From: an uncultured Desulfatitalea sp.
GTDB taxonomy: Bacteria > Desulfobacterota > Desulfobacteria > Desulfobacterales > Desulfosarcinaceae
Direction of reading: 5' to 3'
Length of the DNA stretch: 64,000 nucleotides
NCBI GenBank assembly: GCA_937868765.1
Contig: CALMNL010000003.1
Coordinates: forward strand, 124,001 to 188,000
Every line of letters starts with the position of its first letter. Position 1 is the stretch's first letter. Positions 7,381 to 44,218 of the stretch are shown here, one piece after another. A program made the position numbers and the translations under genes. The notes beneath the pieces are model-generated. The model worked only from the letters and a program-made list of their open reading frames with translations, had not been told where the DNA came from and searched no databases.

Positions 7381-10300
7381 ATGAGCGGCAACACCTCTCG
7401 GGAGATACCTTATAATTATACCTCGGCCGACGACCGGCGCATCCTCGCCATGCTGCTGGGGCAGGAGGTGCTGGCGCCCCTGGAGCGGTTGGTGTTCCGG
7501 CGAAAGACCGGGCGTTCCTGGCGCCTGCTGATGCGCTTCGTGGGGGATCTGTTCATCCACCGCCGCAACCCGTTCCTGTACCAGGAACTGGTAGAGGACG
7601 AGCAACGGCGCCGGGGGTTTCTCGATGCCGCCCGGAAAGAGCTGGCCTGGATCGCTGAAAGGGGGCAGCAGGAACCGGACCTGAGCCTGGTCCTGGAGAG
7701 GTGTCGCCAAAAGCTGGACGATCTGGCCGAGGAACTGGCCGGCGTGCTCGCCTTGCGCCAACGCATGCGCCAGAAGTTGGGCGCCGTCGTGGGCGAAGCA
7801 AATGTGCTCTTCGACCCTTTCAGCCTGTCGGCCCACGCCACCGACGCCACCGACTGGCGCCTGCACCTGCCCGTGGCGGTGGTCTACCCAGCCCAGGAGG
7901 ATCAGGTGCCACGGCTGCTCCAGGCCATCGCGGCCTTGGGACTCAAGGCCATCCCCCGTGGCGGCGGCACCGGGCTGACCGGCGGGGCCGTGCCCGTGGC
8001 ACCCGACTGCGTCATCATCAATACCGAAAAACTCAACCGCATCGGCGCCATCCGGAATGAACGCTTCGAGCAACCGGACGGCCGGTTCTTGACCCTCCCT
8101 GCCATCGGCCTGGAAGCCGGCGTGATCACCGAGGAGGCCATGCAGGCCGCCGAAGCGGCCGGGCTGGTCTTCGCCACCGATCCCACCTCGGCCTGGGCCT
8201 GCACCATCGGTGGCAACATCGCCGAAAACGCCGGCGGAAAGCGGGCCGTTTTATGGGGCACCGCTGTCGACAACCTGCTCGGCTTCCGCATGGCGGTGCC
8301 GGGCGGCAGAACCATCGAAGTGCGGCGGCTGGCTCCCAACGGCCGGCGCATCGATCCCCGCGAAACCATCCGCTTTAGCGTGACGGATAGCGATACCGGA
8401 GAGATGCTCAAGGAGGTTTCCCTCCATGGCCTGCAGCTGCGCAAGCCGGGTCTCGGCAAGGATATCACCAACAAGTGCCTCGAAGGACTGCCGGGCCTGC
8501 AGAAAGAGGGTACCGACGGCATCATCACCTCCGCGGTGTTCCTCCTGCACCAGGCTTATCCCCACCAGGCCACGGTGTGCCTGGAATTCTTCGGCGACGA
8601 CATGGAAGAGGCCGCCGAGGTCATCGAGCAGATCGTGGCGGCCTTCCCCAACGAGGGGCGCGAGGCGCTCATGGCCCTGGAACATTTCGACGAGGAGTAC
8701 GTGCGCGCCATTCAGTACAAGGCCAAAGCGCCGCGCAGCGAGAGCCCCAAGGCAGTACTGCTCATCGATATCGTAGGCCACGGCCCGGATCAGGTCGAAG
8801 CCGGCCTGGGACGGCTGCAGGCACTGCTGGAAGCCTATCCCAACACCTGCATGGCCGTGGCCCAGAGCCCCCAGGAGGCCCAGCGCTTCTGGCGCGACCG
8901 CAAGCGCTTGGGCGCCATCGCCGCCCGCACCAACGCCTTCAAGCTCAACGAGGATATCGTTCTGCCGCTCAGGGCCCTGGCCGAGTTTGCGGCCTTCGTG
9001 GACGCCCTCAACGTGGAAGAGGAGCGGGCCAACCAGCAGGAGGTGATCTGGCAGCTGCGCACCTACCTGGAAAAGGCGGTGCCCATCGAGGACCCCGAGT
9101 GGCTGACGGCCAAGCTGCCCCGGGCCCAGCAACTGCTCAAGGAGCGCCTGGACCAGATCGAACTGGCCGGCCGCGATCACCTGCGCAGTGAGACCCATCT
9201 GCGGCACATTCAGGAGGCCCTGGCCGAACTGCTGCGCGGCTACAGCAAGGTCAACGCGGAGATTCAGCGCGACATCGCCGAGATCCGCGGCCGTCGCATC
9301 GTGGTCGCCACCCACATGCACGCCGGCGACGGCAACGTGCACGTCAACATCCCGGTTTTCTCCAACGACCGCGAGATGATGCTGCGGGCCGCCGAGGTGG
9401 CCGACATCATCATGGAAAAAGCTGTGGAACTGGACGGTGTGGTGAGCGGCGAGCACGGCATCGGCTTCACCAAGATCAAGCACCTGGATGCCGACCTCCT
9501 GGCCGACTTCAAAACCTATCTGGAAACGGCCGACCCGGAGAACCTGGTCAACCCGGGCAAGCTCACCGACCGCAGCGTGGTCGAGCGGGTCTTCACCCCC
9601 TCGTTCAACCTCATCGAGCTGGAGGCCCGCATCCTGCGCTACGGCCACCTGGAGCGGCTGGCCGAGAAGATCTCCCAATGCGTGCGCTGCGGCCGCTGCA
9701 AGACCGCCTGCTGCACCTTCTTTCCGGCGGGCAATCTCTTCTATCACCCGCGCAACAAGAACATGGCCCTGTCCGCCATCATCGAAGCCCTGCTCTACGA
9801 TGCCCAGCGCTCCCGGGCCGTGGGCCTGAGGCCCTTGCGCTGGCTCAAGGAGATCGCCGACCATTGCACACTGTGCCACAAATGCCTGGCGCCGTGTCCG
9901 GTGAACATCGACACCGCCGAGGTGTCGGTTCTCGAGCGCGAAGTGCTCATCGCCCGGGGTGTGCGTCAGACCGCCTGGCCCACGCGCATCGTGCTGGGCT
10001 ATCTGGGTGCCCGCGCCCAAACGGCCAACGCCCTGATGCGTCGCGGCATCCTGCAATGGGGGGGCGGCCTGCAGCGCCTCGGCGCCCGGCTGATCGGCAA
10101 TGGATGGCGGCATTCCAAGCAGCTGGCCGCCTTGTACGCGCCGGCGCCGCCGATCTCGGCGCGTCCGGTCACGGCGCACTATCCGCGGCCCCACGATGTG
10201 AACCAGGCCCTGCTGGTGACGCCGGAGAAGCCCCCGGCGGGCACCGTCTTCTACTTCCCGGGGTGCGGGTCGGAAAGACTGCACGGCGATATCGCTCTGG

Positions 10301-39299: not shown

Positions 39300-41042
39300 A
39301 TGACCTGGTTGTCTCACATAAAACCGGATTTCTGGAGCGTGCGACCGAACTCGCCGGGCGCCTCGCGTTACATGTTCAACTATCGGCGCATCTGGAAGTG
39401 GTCCGTGCTCCTCACCGGGATTGTTTCGCTGATTCCGCTGATTTTCATCACCTTGGTGGACTACAAGGTGACCGAGCAGGCCTTCGAATCGGAGTTTCGC
39501 CTGCGGGCCGCCCGACTGGTTTCCAACACGCGGCGGGTGGTTGGCTTTTTTCTGACGGAACGCCGGGCCGCCTTGGATTTCATTGCGCGGGACAACGACC
39601 CCCAGGCCCTCACCGACCCGGCTCGCCTGGCCCATATCCTGGAGGGATTGCAAAAGAGTTTCGGCGGCGGCTTCATGGACCTGGGCGTCATCGGCGCCGA
39701 TGGTCAGCAAAAGACCTACGTGGGCCCCTTCAGTCTCCAGGACAAGGATTACCACGAGCAGGCCTGGTTCCAGATGGTGGTGGACCGGGGGGTTTACGTC
39801 AGCGACGTCTTCCTGGGGTTCCGTCAGGTGCCCCATCTGATCATCGCTATCCGCCAGAACATGGCCAACGGATCTTTTCAAGTGCTGCGCGCCTCGCTGG
39901 GTATCGGACCCTTCGAGGATCTGCTCTCAAACATGGAGTTGGGGGGGCTCGGGGACGCCTTTATGGTCAACGGCCGCGGCGTCCTGCAGACCAATTCGCG
40001 CTATTTCGGCCGGGTGCTCGAACCCATGAGCCTGCCCGTGCCCGAATATCATCCTTCCACCCAGGTCGTCGACGGCCTCAGTTCGACGGGTGAGAAGCTG
40101 CAGATCGGCTACTGTTTCATCGAAGACACGCCTTTCATCCTGATGATCGTAAAGAAGAATCAGGACCTCATGCGCGCATGGCACCGCACCAGGCTGGAAC
40201 TGATTCTTTTTTTGGTCTTCAGCGTCACCCTGATTCTGGGTGTCATTCTGGGGACCGCCACCTATATGGTGCATAATATCCACCTGGCCGACGAAAAACG
40301 GCTCATGAGCCTGCACCATCTGGAATACAGCAACAAGCTGGCCAGCATCGGCCGTATGGCCGCCAGTGTGGCCCACGAAATCAACAACCCCCTGGCCATC
40401 ATCAACGAAAAGGCGGGGCTCATCAAGGACCTGTTCACCATCAAGCAGTTGTATGCCGGCGATGCCAAGCTCAACAGCCTGGTGGATTCCATCCTGGCTT
40501 CCGTGAAGCGCGCCGGCAAAATCACCAAGCGGCTGCTCACCTTCGCCCGCAACCTGGAGGCCACGGTGGAGGGTGTCCAACTGGATGAATTGGTGCGGGA
40601 GGTGTTCAGCTTTGTGGACAAAGAGGCCCAGGTGCGCGATATTCATATCGAGGTGGATGTTTCTCCCCCTGGCGTCGCCATCCGCAGCGACCGGGGCAAA
40701 CTCCAGCAGATTTTTCTCAACATCGTCAACAACGCTTTCGCAGCCGTAGAGGATGGCGGGCATCTGCGGGTCAAGGTCCGGCATGAAGAAGGCAACGATG
40801 GAGTCGTTCTGAGTTTTTGCGACGATGGTTGCGGCATCCCGCCCGAGGATGTCCATCGCATCTTCGAGCCGTTTTTTTCGACCAAGACCGGAAAAGGGGG
40901 AACGGGCCTTGGGCTTTCCATCACCTACAACCTGGTCCATGAGATCGGCGGTCGTATCGAAGTGGTCAGCGAGGTGGGCAAGGGGACCTGCTTCACGATT
41001 CACTTGCCGAATGATATCGGCCATGAAAGGATGAAAGCATGA
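39300..41042 (+). CDS. Membrane sensor histidine kinase
   Basis: 580 residues. A membrane helix (WSVLLTGIVSLIPLIFITLV, about 40-60) is followed by an extracytoplasmic dCACHE-like sensor, then LILFLVFSVTLILGVILG (about 300-320). The HisKA segment with phosphorylated His (ASVAHEINNPLAIINEK) and HATPase motifs (NIVNNAFAAVEDG, DDGCGIPPEDVHRIFEPFF, GGTGLGLSITYNLV) are complete, so autophosphorylation is expected. It ends by overlapping the next receiver gene. It should be the kinase of the relay that accompanies the SulP transporter; the sensed ligand may be an anion or small acid, unproven. Confidence 0.9.
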   Translation: MTWLSHIKPDFWSVRPNSPGASRYMFNYRRIWKWSVLLTGIVSLIPLIFITLVDYKVTEQAFESEFRLRAARLVSNTRRVVGFFLTERRAALDFIARDNDPQALTDPARLAHILEGLQKSFGGGFMDLGVIGADGQQKTYVGPFSLQDKDYHEQAWFQMVVDRGVYVSDVFLGFRQVPHLIIAIRQNMANGSFQVLRASLGIGPFEDLLSNMELGGLGDAFMVNGRGVLQTNSRYFGRVLEPMSLPVPEYHPSTQVVDGLSSTGEKLQIGYCFIEDTPFILMIVKKNQDLMRAWHRTRLELILFLVFSVTLILGVILGTATYMVHNIHLADEKRLMSLHHLEYSNKLASIGRMAASVAHEINNPLAIINEKAGLIKDLFTIKQLYAGDAKLNSLVDSILASVKRAGKITKRLLTFARNLEATVEGVQLDELVREVFSFVDKEAQVRDIHIEVDVSPPGVAIRSDRGKLQQIFLNIVNNAFAAVEDGGHLRVKVRHEEGNDGVVLSFCDDGCGIPPEDVHRIFEPFFSTKTGKGGTGLGLSITYNLVHEIGGRIEVVSEVGKGTCFTIHLPNDIGHERMKA

Positions 41043-41413
41043 GGGTGCTGCTGGTGGATGATGAATCGGACCTGGCATCGGCCCTGGCCGAAAGACTGGA
41101 TATGCGCGGCATTGAAGCCGACTGGGTCGACTCGGGACAGGAGGCCTTGGAACGCGCCGCGACCGTGCATTACGACCTGGCTGTCCTGGACCTTAAGATG
41201 CCCAAGATCGGCGGGTTGGAACTCAAAGCCCGCATGCAGGCGCGCTATCCCCACATGAAATTCATCTTTCTGACCGGCTATGGGTCGGAAAAGGATTTCG
41301 AGACGGTGGCCAACGATTCAGGTGAGCAGTGTTACCTGGTCAAACCGGTGGAGATCGAAGACTTGATCCGTCTGATGAATATATTGACCCAGGATGCGGG
41401 AGGCCGCCCATGA
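41039..41413 (+). CDS. Single-domain response regulator
   Basis: 124 residues, receiver only. RVLLVDDESDLASALAE, phosphoacceptor in YDLAVLDLKMPKIGG, FIFLTGYGSEKDF and CYLVKPVEIEDLIR. Start overlaps the kinase stop (ATGA) and its stop overlaps the next start (ATGA). No DNA-binding output, so it probably passes phosphate to the following phosphotransfer-like protein. Confidence 0.93.
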   Translation: MRVLLVDDESDLASALAERLDMRGIEADWVDSGQEALERAATVHYDLAVLDLKMPKIGGLELKARMQARYPHMKFIFLTGYGSEKDFETVANDSGEQCYLVKPVEIEDLIRLMNILTQDAGGRP

Positions 41414-42066
41414 GTCCAGGATTGACGCTCGTTGGCCAAAGCGGCCTGACCTATTTCGGTCGCACGACGGCCTCCATCTCCCATGAGCTCAAGAACGCTC
41501 TGGCCATCATCAAGGAGAACGCCGGCCTGCTGGGCGATTACCTGCTCATGATGGAAAAGGGCATGCCCATCGACCCCGCCCGCTTTAAGACCGTGGCCGG
41601 GCGCATCGAGGACCAGATCACCAGGGCTGATGGGATCATCAAAAACCTCAACCGTTTCGCCCACAGCGTCGACGACCCCGTCAAGGCCATCGACCTCAAC
41701 GAAACGGCCGGCCTGCTGGGGGTTCTCTCCCAGCGCGAAGCGGCCATGCGGCAGATAGCGTTGCAGGTGATCCCCCAAGAAGGGACGCTGACGGTGACCA
41801 CAGCCCCCTATCTGCTCCTGAACCTCTTGGGGCGTTGCCTGAGCATTTGCCTGCAGCACATGGGCGCCGGCAAGACCCTGTCCGTAAGGGTCGCAAAGGA
41901 AGGGGACAAGGCCTGTATCGTTTTCGATGCCCTGGATGCCGCGGCGTTGGCGTCCGCTGGAAGTTTTCCCGGAGAGAGCGAATCCGCCCTTTTATCCGCC
42001 GTGGGGGCCGATTGCCGTCTGGATGGAAACCAAGGGCGTTTGATCATAACCCTATCAAACCGCTGA
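41410..42066 (+). CDS. Histidine-phosphotransferase/degenerate-kinase-like protein
   Basis: 218 residues. A HisKA-like helical part with a candidate phospho-His (TTASISHELKNALAIIKEN, residues about 18-36) and a second helix (IEDQITRADGIIKNLNRFAH) would form a dimeric four-helix bundle. The C-terminal part resembles an ATPase fold (PYLLLNLLGRCLSICLQHMG) but lacks the DxGxG and G2 motifs seen in the kinase at 39300. So it is more likely a ChpT/Spo0B-type phosphotransfer protein than an active kinase. The overlap with the preceding receiver (ATGA) and the receiver 49 bases later suggest a kinase-receiver-HPt-receiver phosphorelay. Confidence 0.65.
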   Translation: MSPGLTLVGQSGLTYFGRTTASISHELKNALAIIKENAGLLGDYLLMMEKGMPIDPARFKTVAGRIEDQITRADGIIKNLNRFAHSVDDPVKAIDLNETAGLLGVLSQREAAMRQIALQVIPQEGTLTVTTAPYLLLNLLGRCLSICLQHMGAGKTLSVRVAKEGDKACIVFDALDAAALASAGSFPGESESALLSAVGADCRLDGNQGRLIITLSNR

Positions 42067-42115
42067 CCTTGTGCTGGACAAGGCCGACAGGGGCTCAGTC
42101 GAAAGGAGCATTAAT

Positions 42116-42544
42116 ATGGGTGAAAAAATTTTGTTGGTGGATGACGAAAAGGATTTCCTGACGGTCATGTCCGAACGCATGACGGCCAGGGGTATGGAAG
42201 TGACCACCGCCGACTCGGCCCAGGAGGCCTTGCAGGAGGTGGAAAGCGGCGCCTACGACGCCATCGTATTGGACCTGAAGATGCCCGGCATGGATGGCAT
42301 CGAAACGTTGAAAGCCATCAAGGCCAGGAACCCGACCCTGCAGGTGATCCTCTTGACGGGGCATGCCACCCTTGAAAAAGGCATCGAAGCCATGAAATTG
42401 GGCGCCATGGATTTCGTGGAAAAGCCCGCCGACCTGAATGTGCTCACGGAAAAAATCAAGAAGGCCCAGGCTCGAAAAATGGTCCTGGTAGCTGAACAGA
42501 CCGAACAGAAACTGAAAAGCATCCTGCAAGCCAAGGGCTGGTAG
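42116..42544 (+). CDS. Single-domain response regulator, relay end
   Basis: 142 residues, one receiver domain (ILLVDDEKDFLTVMSERM, phosphoacceptor in DAIVLDLKMPGMDGIE, ILLTGHATLEKGIEAMKLG, DFVEKPADL) with a C-terminal helical tail (KAQARKMVLVAEQTEQKLKS) that lacks a DNA-binding domain. AAGGAG lies 8 bases before the ATG at 42116; the longer frame lacks a ribosome binding site. It closes the transporter-signalling island; a long hairpin follows 20 bases after the stop. Confidence 0.92.
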   Translation: MGEKILLVDDEKDFLTVMSERMTARGMEVTTADSAQEALQEVESGAYDAIVLDLKMPGMDGIETLKAIKARNPTLQVILLTGHATLEKGIEAMKLGAMDFVEKPADLNVLTEKIKKAQARKMVLVAEQTEQKLKSILQAKGW

Positions 42545-42971
42545 CCCTGATACCACACGCCTCGGGATGGGCGGATCGACCGGTTTTTCTCCTTGCATCG
42601 AGGTGGAACCGGTTGGCTCGCCCATCCGTCCGCATCCTTGCACAGAATGAATCAGGGATAATTTCTTGACTTGGGCTTGACAATGGGCCTATGAATTAAA
42701 CTTTCTCACAGGTTGCCTCAGGCCCTGGTCCCTGTTTGGTGTTGCCGGGGTGATGCATCGGCTGCAAAGCCGGGACGTTTCCTCTATCCTGTTACGGCTT
42801 CGATTCTCCCTCAGAGCAAACGCCCCTGCCGGTGTGATGAGACATTTCGGCTTCCATCCTGAACAGGGAGCAGAATCAGTAAAAAGTTGTTTGTCCCAAG
42901 CCATTCGCGGAGGTAAAACGAGCGGCACCGTGCAGTGCCTCCGATTCAGGCCTCCAGAATAGGTGGTTCCA
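42545..42971. other. Long intergenic region between the signalling island and the PilZ gene
   Basis: It holds the hairpin at 42565-42627 and a weak promoter-like pair TTGACT (42666-42671), 18 bases, TATGAA (42690-42695). Codon pattern and stops do not support a gene. I tested by eye for a c-di-GMP (GEMM) riboswitch because of a GCAAAGCC string near 42768; the required GGGACGCAAAGC context and tetraloop are missing. Confidence 0.4.
42565..42627. terminator. Long imperfect hairpin after the response-regulator gene
   Basis: GGATGGGCG (42565-42573) pairs with CGCCCATCC (42619-42627), and inside it ACCGGTT (42579-42585) pairs with AACCGGT (42607-42613); the 5 bases between are partly complementary. 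The loop is 21 bases. No T-run follows, so it is not a standard rho-independent terminator; it could be a decayed one, a repeat element or a transcript-stabilising structure. Confidence 0.45.
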
Positions 42972-43358
42972 ATGAAGAACATGATCACACGTTTGCTCAC
43001 CCTGCGCCTGCGCAAGCGACGGCGCTTCCGCGTTAAAGACGGCATCTATGTGGTTCAGGGACGGTATCTCTCCTCGGGTAAGAACCAGATCAATGACATC
43101 AGCATGGGGGGACTCTCCTTTTACTACATCGAGAGCGCCAACCGGATAAGCCGCGACCAGCAGAGTGTCACCCTGCTCACCGACACTCCGAATTCGGCCA
43201 TGCAAATGCCTTGCAAAGTTGTGTGCGACGACAGCACCGGTGAATTGATTTTTTCCAATCAGTCGGTGAAACGCCGTTGCGTAAAGTTCGGACGCCTGAA
43301 TGCGGAGCAGAAAAAACAATTGAAGGAGTTGATCAAGGGCTTCTGCCTGCGTCCTTGA
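42972..43358 (+). CDS. PilZ-like domain protein
   Basis: 128 residues. RKRRRFRVKDGIYVVQG carries the RxxxR motif and INDISMGGLSFYYIE the D/NxSxxG motif of PilZ, so c-di-GMP binding is likely. No partner domain or membrane segment. ATG at 42972 has AGGTGG 5 bases before it; a GTG nine bases upstream is not chosen. The next plus-strand genes include a glucan-synthase-like protein 1.1 kb away, which makes a c-di-GMP control of polysaccharide output a possible theme. Confidence 0.75.
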   Translation: MKNMITRLLTLRLRKRRRFRVKDGIYVVQGRYLSSGKNQINDISMGGLSFYYIESANRISRDQQSVTLLTDTPNSAMQMPCKVVCDDSTGELIFSNQSVKRRCVKFGRLNAEQKKQLKELIKGFCLRP

Positions 43359-43391: not shown

Positions 43392-43829
43392 TCAGGCGAC
43401 CTTCAGCATTGAAAAGTCTTGTTCGGACGGCATGCTGAACATCAACGGACGGCGCACGCTTTCAAGGTTTTCATGCATGGCTGCGCGTCGATGCTCCCCC
43501 ATGGGAAAACCCTTGGCCACACCTATCAGCATGATCGCCAGCAGCTTGATTCTCTGATAAAAGATGCGATCGTAGTCCGTCCCTGCGGCGGGAGGATTGG
43601 ATGGGGCGGGCGTTTGATCCCTTTCCGCCGCTGAGCTCAGGACGTTGACCGCCCCGGCCATGTATTGGGCATTTTCCAGCATGGCGTGACGACGATGCGC
43701 GCCTAGCGGATAGCCGTCCAGATAAGCATAACCCATTACCAGCATTAATTTCAGACGGGAAAAAAAGATGTCTTCGAGATCCATTTGGCGGATTTGATCA
43801 GATGGAGAGCCGAGTCGAAGCATGCCCAA
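43392..43829 (-). CDS. Protein built of two copies of an unrecognised ~43-residue module
   Basis: 145 residues, family not recognised. Residues 17-59 and 85-127 align: pattern DxxxIF[FY]xR[LI]KLxxxM, six residues, G[YF]P[LM]G, then xHRRxAMxEN. Examples are DGYPLGAHRRHAMLEN and AKGFPMGEHRRAAMHEN. The repeated RLK, HRR and EN positions look like a conserved binding surface. The two copies are separated by a Pro/Ala-rich linker (DQTPAPSNPPAAG). No signal peptide or membrane segment is obvious. Start: a TTG at 43829 has an AGGG 5 bases ahead; the ATG at 43823 is the alternative. Confidence 0.65.
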   Translation of the reverse strand: MGMLRLGSPSDQIRQMDLEDIFFSRLKLMLVMGYAYLDGYPLGAHRRHAMLENAQYMAGAVNVLSSAAERDQTPAPSNPPAAGTDYDRIFYQRIKLLAIMLIGVAKGFPMGEHRRAAMHENLESVRRPLMFSMPSEQDFSMLKVA

Positions 43830-43984: not shown

Positions 43985-44218
43985 TCAGGCGCCATCGATC
44001 TGGCCGGAAATCACTTTGAAAACGAAGCCGGCGTGCTCCACCCCCTTGCGCTGCCCGATGCGATAGGGATGGATGTCCTCGGCGATGGCATCAGCGGGCA
44101 TTTCCCGCCGATCACGGCCCGTGCGTCTTTCGGGAATATGGTTGGAGTATTCGAACGAACGCCTTTCGAAACTCAGGCGGCGCTCCAGCGGACGAGTCTG
44201 AACGGCATGTTTTCTCAT
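43985..44218 (-). CDS. Small ERR/DRR-motif protein (77 aa)
   Basis: 77 residues, family not recognised by name. RRLSFERRSFEYSNH and PERRTGRDRREMPADA resemble arginine-rich small proteins with an ERRxGxDRR motif frequent beside PilZ and signalling genes in Deltaproteobacteria-like genomes. GAGG lies 8 bases before the ATG. No signal or membrane helix. It lies between the two-module protein and the glucan synthase gene, divergent from the latter by about 260 bases. Confidence 0.55.
   Translation of the reverse strand: MRKHAVQTRPLERRLSFERRSFEYSNHIPERRTGRDRREMPADAIAEDIHPYRIGQRKGVEHAGFVFKVISGQIDGA

Follow-up and report, generated by a model that had tools for sequence, protein, structure and literature searches.

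A duplicated helical-hairpin protein of Desulfobacterales as the probable partner of a distinctive subfamily of single-domain receivers

The 64,000-nt stretch of DNA from an uncultured Desulfatitalea sp. analysed here (the window) carries a gene, designated T, whose product is probably, as judged from sequence, the dedicated binding partner of a distinctive 'NR' subfamily of single-domain receivers and is in some lineages also tied to PilZ. The partnership between T and the NR receiver is well supported. What is new is the identification of this receiver as the partner of T, together with the evolutionary evidence for the pair; no description of a T–receiver–PilZ module was found in the literature. 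The main partner of T is not visible from the window, because the receiver sits elsewhere in the genome.

The first-pass annotation had proposed a two-copy module in the T frame, with a spurious frame as the outcome should homologues be lacking. Homologues at 28-72% identity occur in dozens of genomes, which rules out a spurious frame. Translation probably starts at the ATG at 43823, with a TTG at 43829 as the alternative, the former being preferred because the family consensus begins MLRLG. The duplication itself is real: the two 43-residue stretches align without gaps with 17 identities (40%), the best ungapped self-match scores 92 as compared to 22.5 +/- 3.8 (maximum 48) in 2000 shuffles, and the two halves, compared as profiles built from 41 homologues, match with 99.1% probability (hhalign, E 7.6e-19). 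The initial estimate that about half of the positions match thus holds only when similar residues are counted, but not for identities.

Across the family, the signature reads RLKLLxxM...GxPxGxxR[RK]xAxxEN plus a near-invariant C-terminal LKVA. Conserved positions comprise R25, L26, L28, M32, P41, G43, R46 and N53 in hairpin 1, their counterparts F90, Q92, R93, L96, L97, M100, A117 and N121 in hairpin 2, and L142, V144 and A145 at the C-terminus, each hairpin having an Asn that is nearly invariant (N53, N121). Of the originally proposed HRRxAMxEN signature, R and N are kept among relatives, but the H is conserved in neither copy; Y, R, Q, V, C and F are among the residues found in its place. 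Most members that do not end exactly in FLKVA end in [x]LxVA.

Table 1 Features of the window around gene T.
Feature	Position	Strand	Basis or remark
Gene T (143-145 aa, duplicated helical-hairpin protein without family match)	43392..43829	-	homologues; Pfam, NCBIfam and PDB searches
Hairpin 1, T residues 17-59, IFFSRLKLMLVM...GYPLGAHRRHAMLEN	43653..43781	-	repeat statistics; AlphaFold2 helices 18-37 and 43-70
Hairpin 2, T residues 85-127, IFYQRIKLLAIM...GFPMGEHRRAAMHEN	43449..43577	-	repeat statistics; AlphaFold2 helices 82-105 and 112-132
Conserved C-terminal tail of T, LKVA-COOH	43395..43406	-	37/67 members end exactly in FLKVA
PilZ-domain protein, convergent neighbour of T	42963..43358	+	PF07238, E 7.1e-5, above cut-off; RxxxR, DxSxxG
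Small [DE]RR-rich protein, 77 aa, ~155 bp upstream of T	43985..44218	-	same kind upstream in relatives
Cache sensor kinase, receiver, short kinase and receiver genes (context)	39300..42544	+	conserved next to T only in the window's genus

Structure prediction with AlphaFold2 indicated T to form two helical hairpins, mostly with block confidences >90; the linker between them is poorly predicted, and confidence is again low in the tail. Both predicted models were helical (pLDDT about 79-80). The designation of T as an unrecognised family was borne out. Window T matched nothing in Pfam or NCBIfam, and searching the same libraries with 41 homologues returned scattered, sub-significant matches, each confined to at most three members (best E 3e-4). 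The T profile matched no chain among PDB sequences, and Foldseek returned nothing below E 0.5 for the T model against PDB structures and viral predictions. A viral origin was considered and dismissed, since searches of viral contigs and of viral folds both came back without a relative or match. T is most likely a small cytoplasmic scaffold or adaptor, with its two tandem homologous hairpins in a pseudo-symmetric four-helix arrangement.

Among the 45 named genome_contigs loci with readable downstream DNA, 27 carry a single-domain receiver directly 3' of T on the same strand, at a distance of -8 to +54 nt (mostly -4 to +13) and often with a 4-nt ATGA or GTGA overlap; the remaining 18 lack an adjacent receiver. 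The partner genes encode receivers of ~125-153 aa (PF00072, E 3e-8 to 1e-19) without an output domain, as expected of single-domain response regulators, and form the distinctive NR subfamily, in which N and R are each present in 56 of 60 members. A profile of this subfamily singled out one ortholog in the window's genome (160 bits), the next of its 138 receivers scoring 66.

In a draw of 389 genomes of the window's order (Desulfobacterales), searched for both genes under the same genome handles, T was found in 79, the NR receiver in 80 and both in 75 (Fisher p 1e-68, uncorrected for relatedness, with shared ancestry inflating the co-occurrence statistic). The four genomes with T only are 66-88% complete. 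Of the five with the receiver only, three reflect weak matches (~77 bits) within larger proteins, leaving two real exceptions, G031 (L158) and G458 (L159), which encode an NR-type receiver and no detectable T; here, T may be too divergent to detect or the receiver may have a different partner. A better test of co-inheritance than the whole-draw value is genus g4, because T and receiver are unlinked there: five of its 13 genomes have both genes and eight have neither (p 8e-4). Outside the order, an evenly drawn sample of the phylum contained T in two genomes (G331, G368), with the NR receiver adjoining T in one and, in the other, located ~1.4 kb 3' of it on the same strand. The 48 named T loci belong to Desulfobacterales, Desulfatitalea and Desulfosarcina included, or to unclassified deltaproteobacterial or proteobacterial MAGs. 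Members of family f22 (L041, L042, L048, L051, L054-L056), the names of whose genomes include sediment and seep MAGs, carry extra T copies without an adjacent receiver besides a T–receiver pair.

The history of the pair in the window's genus bears further on this partnership. Relatives can carry two paralogous pairs: pair A, comprising T, receiver and then, in several of them, a convergent PilZ gene, and pair B, comprising T, receiver, AHCY and MetK. Window T falls into clade A together with its two nearest relatives (tree support 99), and in all three genomes no receiver lies between T and the convergent PilZ gene. Loss of the receiver from the window's genome is nonetheless ruled out by the one ortholog, located on contig C4. 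Indeed, the sole NR receiver of each of these three genomes belongs to clade B (support 98) and sits at the AHCY/MetK locus without a T, while relatives keep both T-B and receiver-B at this position. The window's genome thus combines T from one paralogous pair with the receiver from the other, and that a single copy of each gene survives in these genomes, though of different pair origin, is as expected if both proteins work together. Genome G004 represents an intermediate: a 33-aa remnant of T-B precedes receiver B, which is intact, and receiver A (L029, around 8422-8745) is missing a middle stretch that seems to take in the phospho-acceptor region, as in a decaying copy. Fragmentary, truncated or split T copies were seen elsewhere (L105 4211-4570; L103 6161-6295; L160 1265-1363), and such broken copies in several genomes suggest that surplus paralogues are still decaying. 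A search for adaptation to the clade-B receiver in window T gave nothing, none of six columns carrying clade-B-like changes in the window trio.

Many NR receivers have lost the residue through which a receiver is phosphorylated. Of 60 receivers, 32 still have the phospho-acceptor Asp and 28 carry another residue in its place, namely E in 15, A in four, G in three, Q in two and otherwise S, N, C or R; the receiver of the window's genome has Glu. The state of this position changed at least four times on the tree, and T is retained beside receivers both with and without the Asp. Because receivers repeatedly lost the Asp while T was kept, the partnership, as read from these sequences, cannot depend on phosphorylation at the Asp site in Asp-less lineages, the window's genome included.

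The first-pass annotation had also named PilZ, ERR/DRR and glucan-synthase genes as neighbours of T, and these fared differently. In genus g10, two natural PilZ–T fusions of ~280 aa (G033, G485) end in FLKVA and are directly followed by the receiver, and a PilZ gene closely adjoins T in the window and at L022, L023, L027, L030, L079 and L037/L098. With ~12 PilZ genes in 5.4 Mb, such neighbours would rarely arise by chance. The window neighbour and the fusions, putative c-di-GMP binders, match the PilZ profile and carry the RxxxR and [DN]xSxxG motifs; RxxxR is present in T-neighbour PilZs, and the strict DxSxxG in all but one of them (L079, DIGMGG). The PilZ link thus stands by its fusions and recurrent neighbours, but PilZ does not track the presence and absence of T: the window-type protein also occurs in the T-less genomes G014, G015, G020 and G024. 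For this reason PilZ is an associate of T, and its status as an obligate partner is unsupported. The ERR/DRR neighbour proved recurrent upstream of T on the same strand (L022-L026, L028, L029, L041, L079). Its core reads SNHIPERRSGxDRR, and [DE]RR-rich proteins of this kind are noted at 43985-44218 (-) of the window and at L166 4792-4887 (+). It is essentially single-copy in the window's genome, where the only other copy, a weaker match, lies on contig C12 upstream of polysaccharide chain-length/export-type genes. The glucan-synthase gene is not a recurrent neighbour, clustering with T only in the window and its two closest relatives. Finally, the two receivers within the window (41039 and 42071) are excluded as partners of T, since they score as ordinary receivers outside the NR subfamily (43-45 versus 136-142 for the general model).

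On balance, we think it rather probable that T is a scaffold dedicated to NR receivers, a reading for which duplication, operon, co-inheritance and fusion were computed and in which we infer direct binding and the output. T would bind the NR receiver directly, its conserved R and N positions and its LKVA tail being candidates for contact or recognition, and in some lineages at least it would couple the receiver to a PilZ domain. Its output would be protein–protein control, with the state of the receiver and, where PilZ is present, c-di-GMP as inputs. A more specific version, in which T forms the bridge between a PilZ domain sensing c-di-GMP and a single-domain receiver, in many cases a pseudo-receiver that cannot be phosphorylated, in a so far undescribed Desulfobacterales module, is possible and we put it forward tentatively.

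By analogy, we rate the T–receiver system as likely to belong with receiver-plus-adaptor signalling, which is already known in kind. In Myxococcus, the single-domain response regulator EpsW acts on EpsZ by direct contact (PMC12802240). The NR receiver is likewise a receiver-only protein with a presumed direct protein–protein output; unlike EpsW, whose partner is a phosphoglycosyl transferase and for which phosphorylation matters, its candidate partner is a small helical protein and many of its members lack the usual Asp. The pseudo-receiver of ShkA binds c-di-GMP (PMC7010744) and resembles the NR receiver/PilZ combination in joining a degenerate receiver to c-di-GMP signalling, but it is a domain of a hybrid kinase, whereas the NR receiver is a stand-alone protein encoded beside T. 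As for the PilZ effectors themselves (PF07238), T is connected to them by the two fusions and several neighbours but is not itself a PilZ protein. The best functional analogy is CpdR–RcdA–PopA of Caulobacter, where a scaffolding adaptor acts jointly with a single-domain receiver and with a c-di-GMP effector (PMC8973945). The T module would have the same three kinds of component; it differs in that no sequence or fold relation was detected, its effector is PilZ and present in some lineages only, and any link to a protease is hypothetical.

This analogy can be pressed into a reading of its own, namely a ClpXP-type adaptor hierarchy with the receiver priming the protease, T serving as helical scaffold, PilZ supplying the c-di-GMP input and LKVA acting as the protease-recognition tag, a role that the conserved tail would fit. 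The set of parts is the same (PMC8973945), the conserved tail of T is modelled with low confidence or as exposed, and the tmRNA tag of the genome ends in AVAA, loosely like KVA. Yet no known adaptor matched T in sequence or fold, with RcdA absent among the Foldseek matches listed for T and adaptor families absent among the Pfam matches of the 41 members; PilZ is not universal, and nothing in the T loci points to ClpX. The T tail moreover differs from the tmRNA tag (ADDYNYAVAA), which rules out LKVA being that tag. We therefore regard the ClpXP hierarchy as unlikely.

Two further readings involve the phosphorylation of the receiver. That T modulates receiver phosphorylation, as a phosphatase like CheZ or Spo0E or by blocking access of a kinase, would agree with its helical nature, its operon with the receiver and the near-invariant Asn in each hairpin, amide residues being used by known receiver phosphatases. 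We consider this quite unlikely, given the persistence of T beside the 28 of 60 receivers that have lost the phospho-Asp, with at least four changes of state. A histidine phosphotransfer protein (Hpt or DHp-like) feeding the receiver is suggested by the paired hairpins, which resemble a single-chain DHp dimer, and by the HRR in both window copies; with no conserved His column in T, and no Hpt or HisKA match in Pfam for the 41 members, this reading is largely refuted by the lack of an invariant phospho-accepting His and is extremely improbable. Alternatively, T and the receiver could be co-inherited passengers with separate jobs, sharing only an operon and a lineage history. The clades to which the two genes are restricted largely coincide, and unlinked copies exist, but unlinked genes are jointly present or absent within one genus and reciprocal paralogue loss leaves one T plus one receiver, which makes this very unlikely.

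For an orphan family and for a subfamily of stand-alone receivers without known output, the pairing of T with NR receivers provides both with a testable partner and context. The pairs also form a natural series for studying directly how pseudo-receivers signal, since T stays in place as the phosphorylation site of the receiver is lost time and again. The window's genus adds a clean example of reciprocal paralogue loss, which predicts cross-pairing between two duplicated protein pairs. If true, the bridging module would represent a switch built on a receiver yet freed from the need for phosphorylation.
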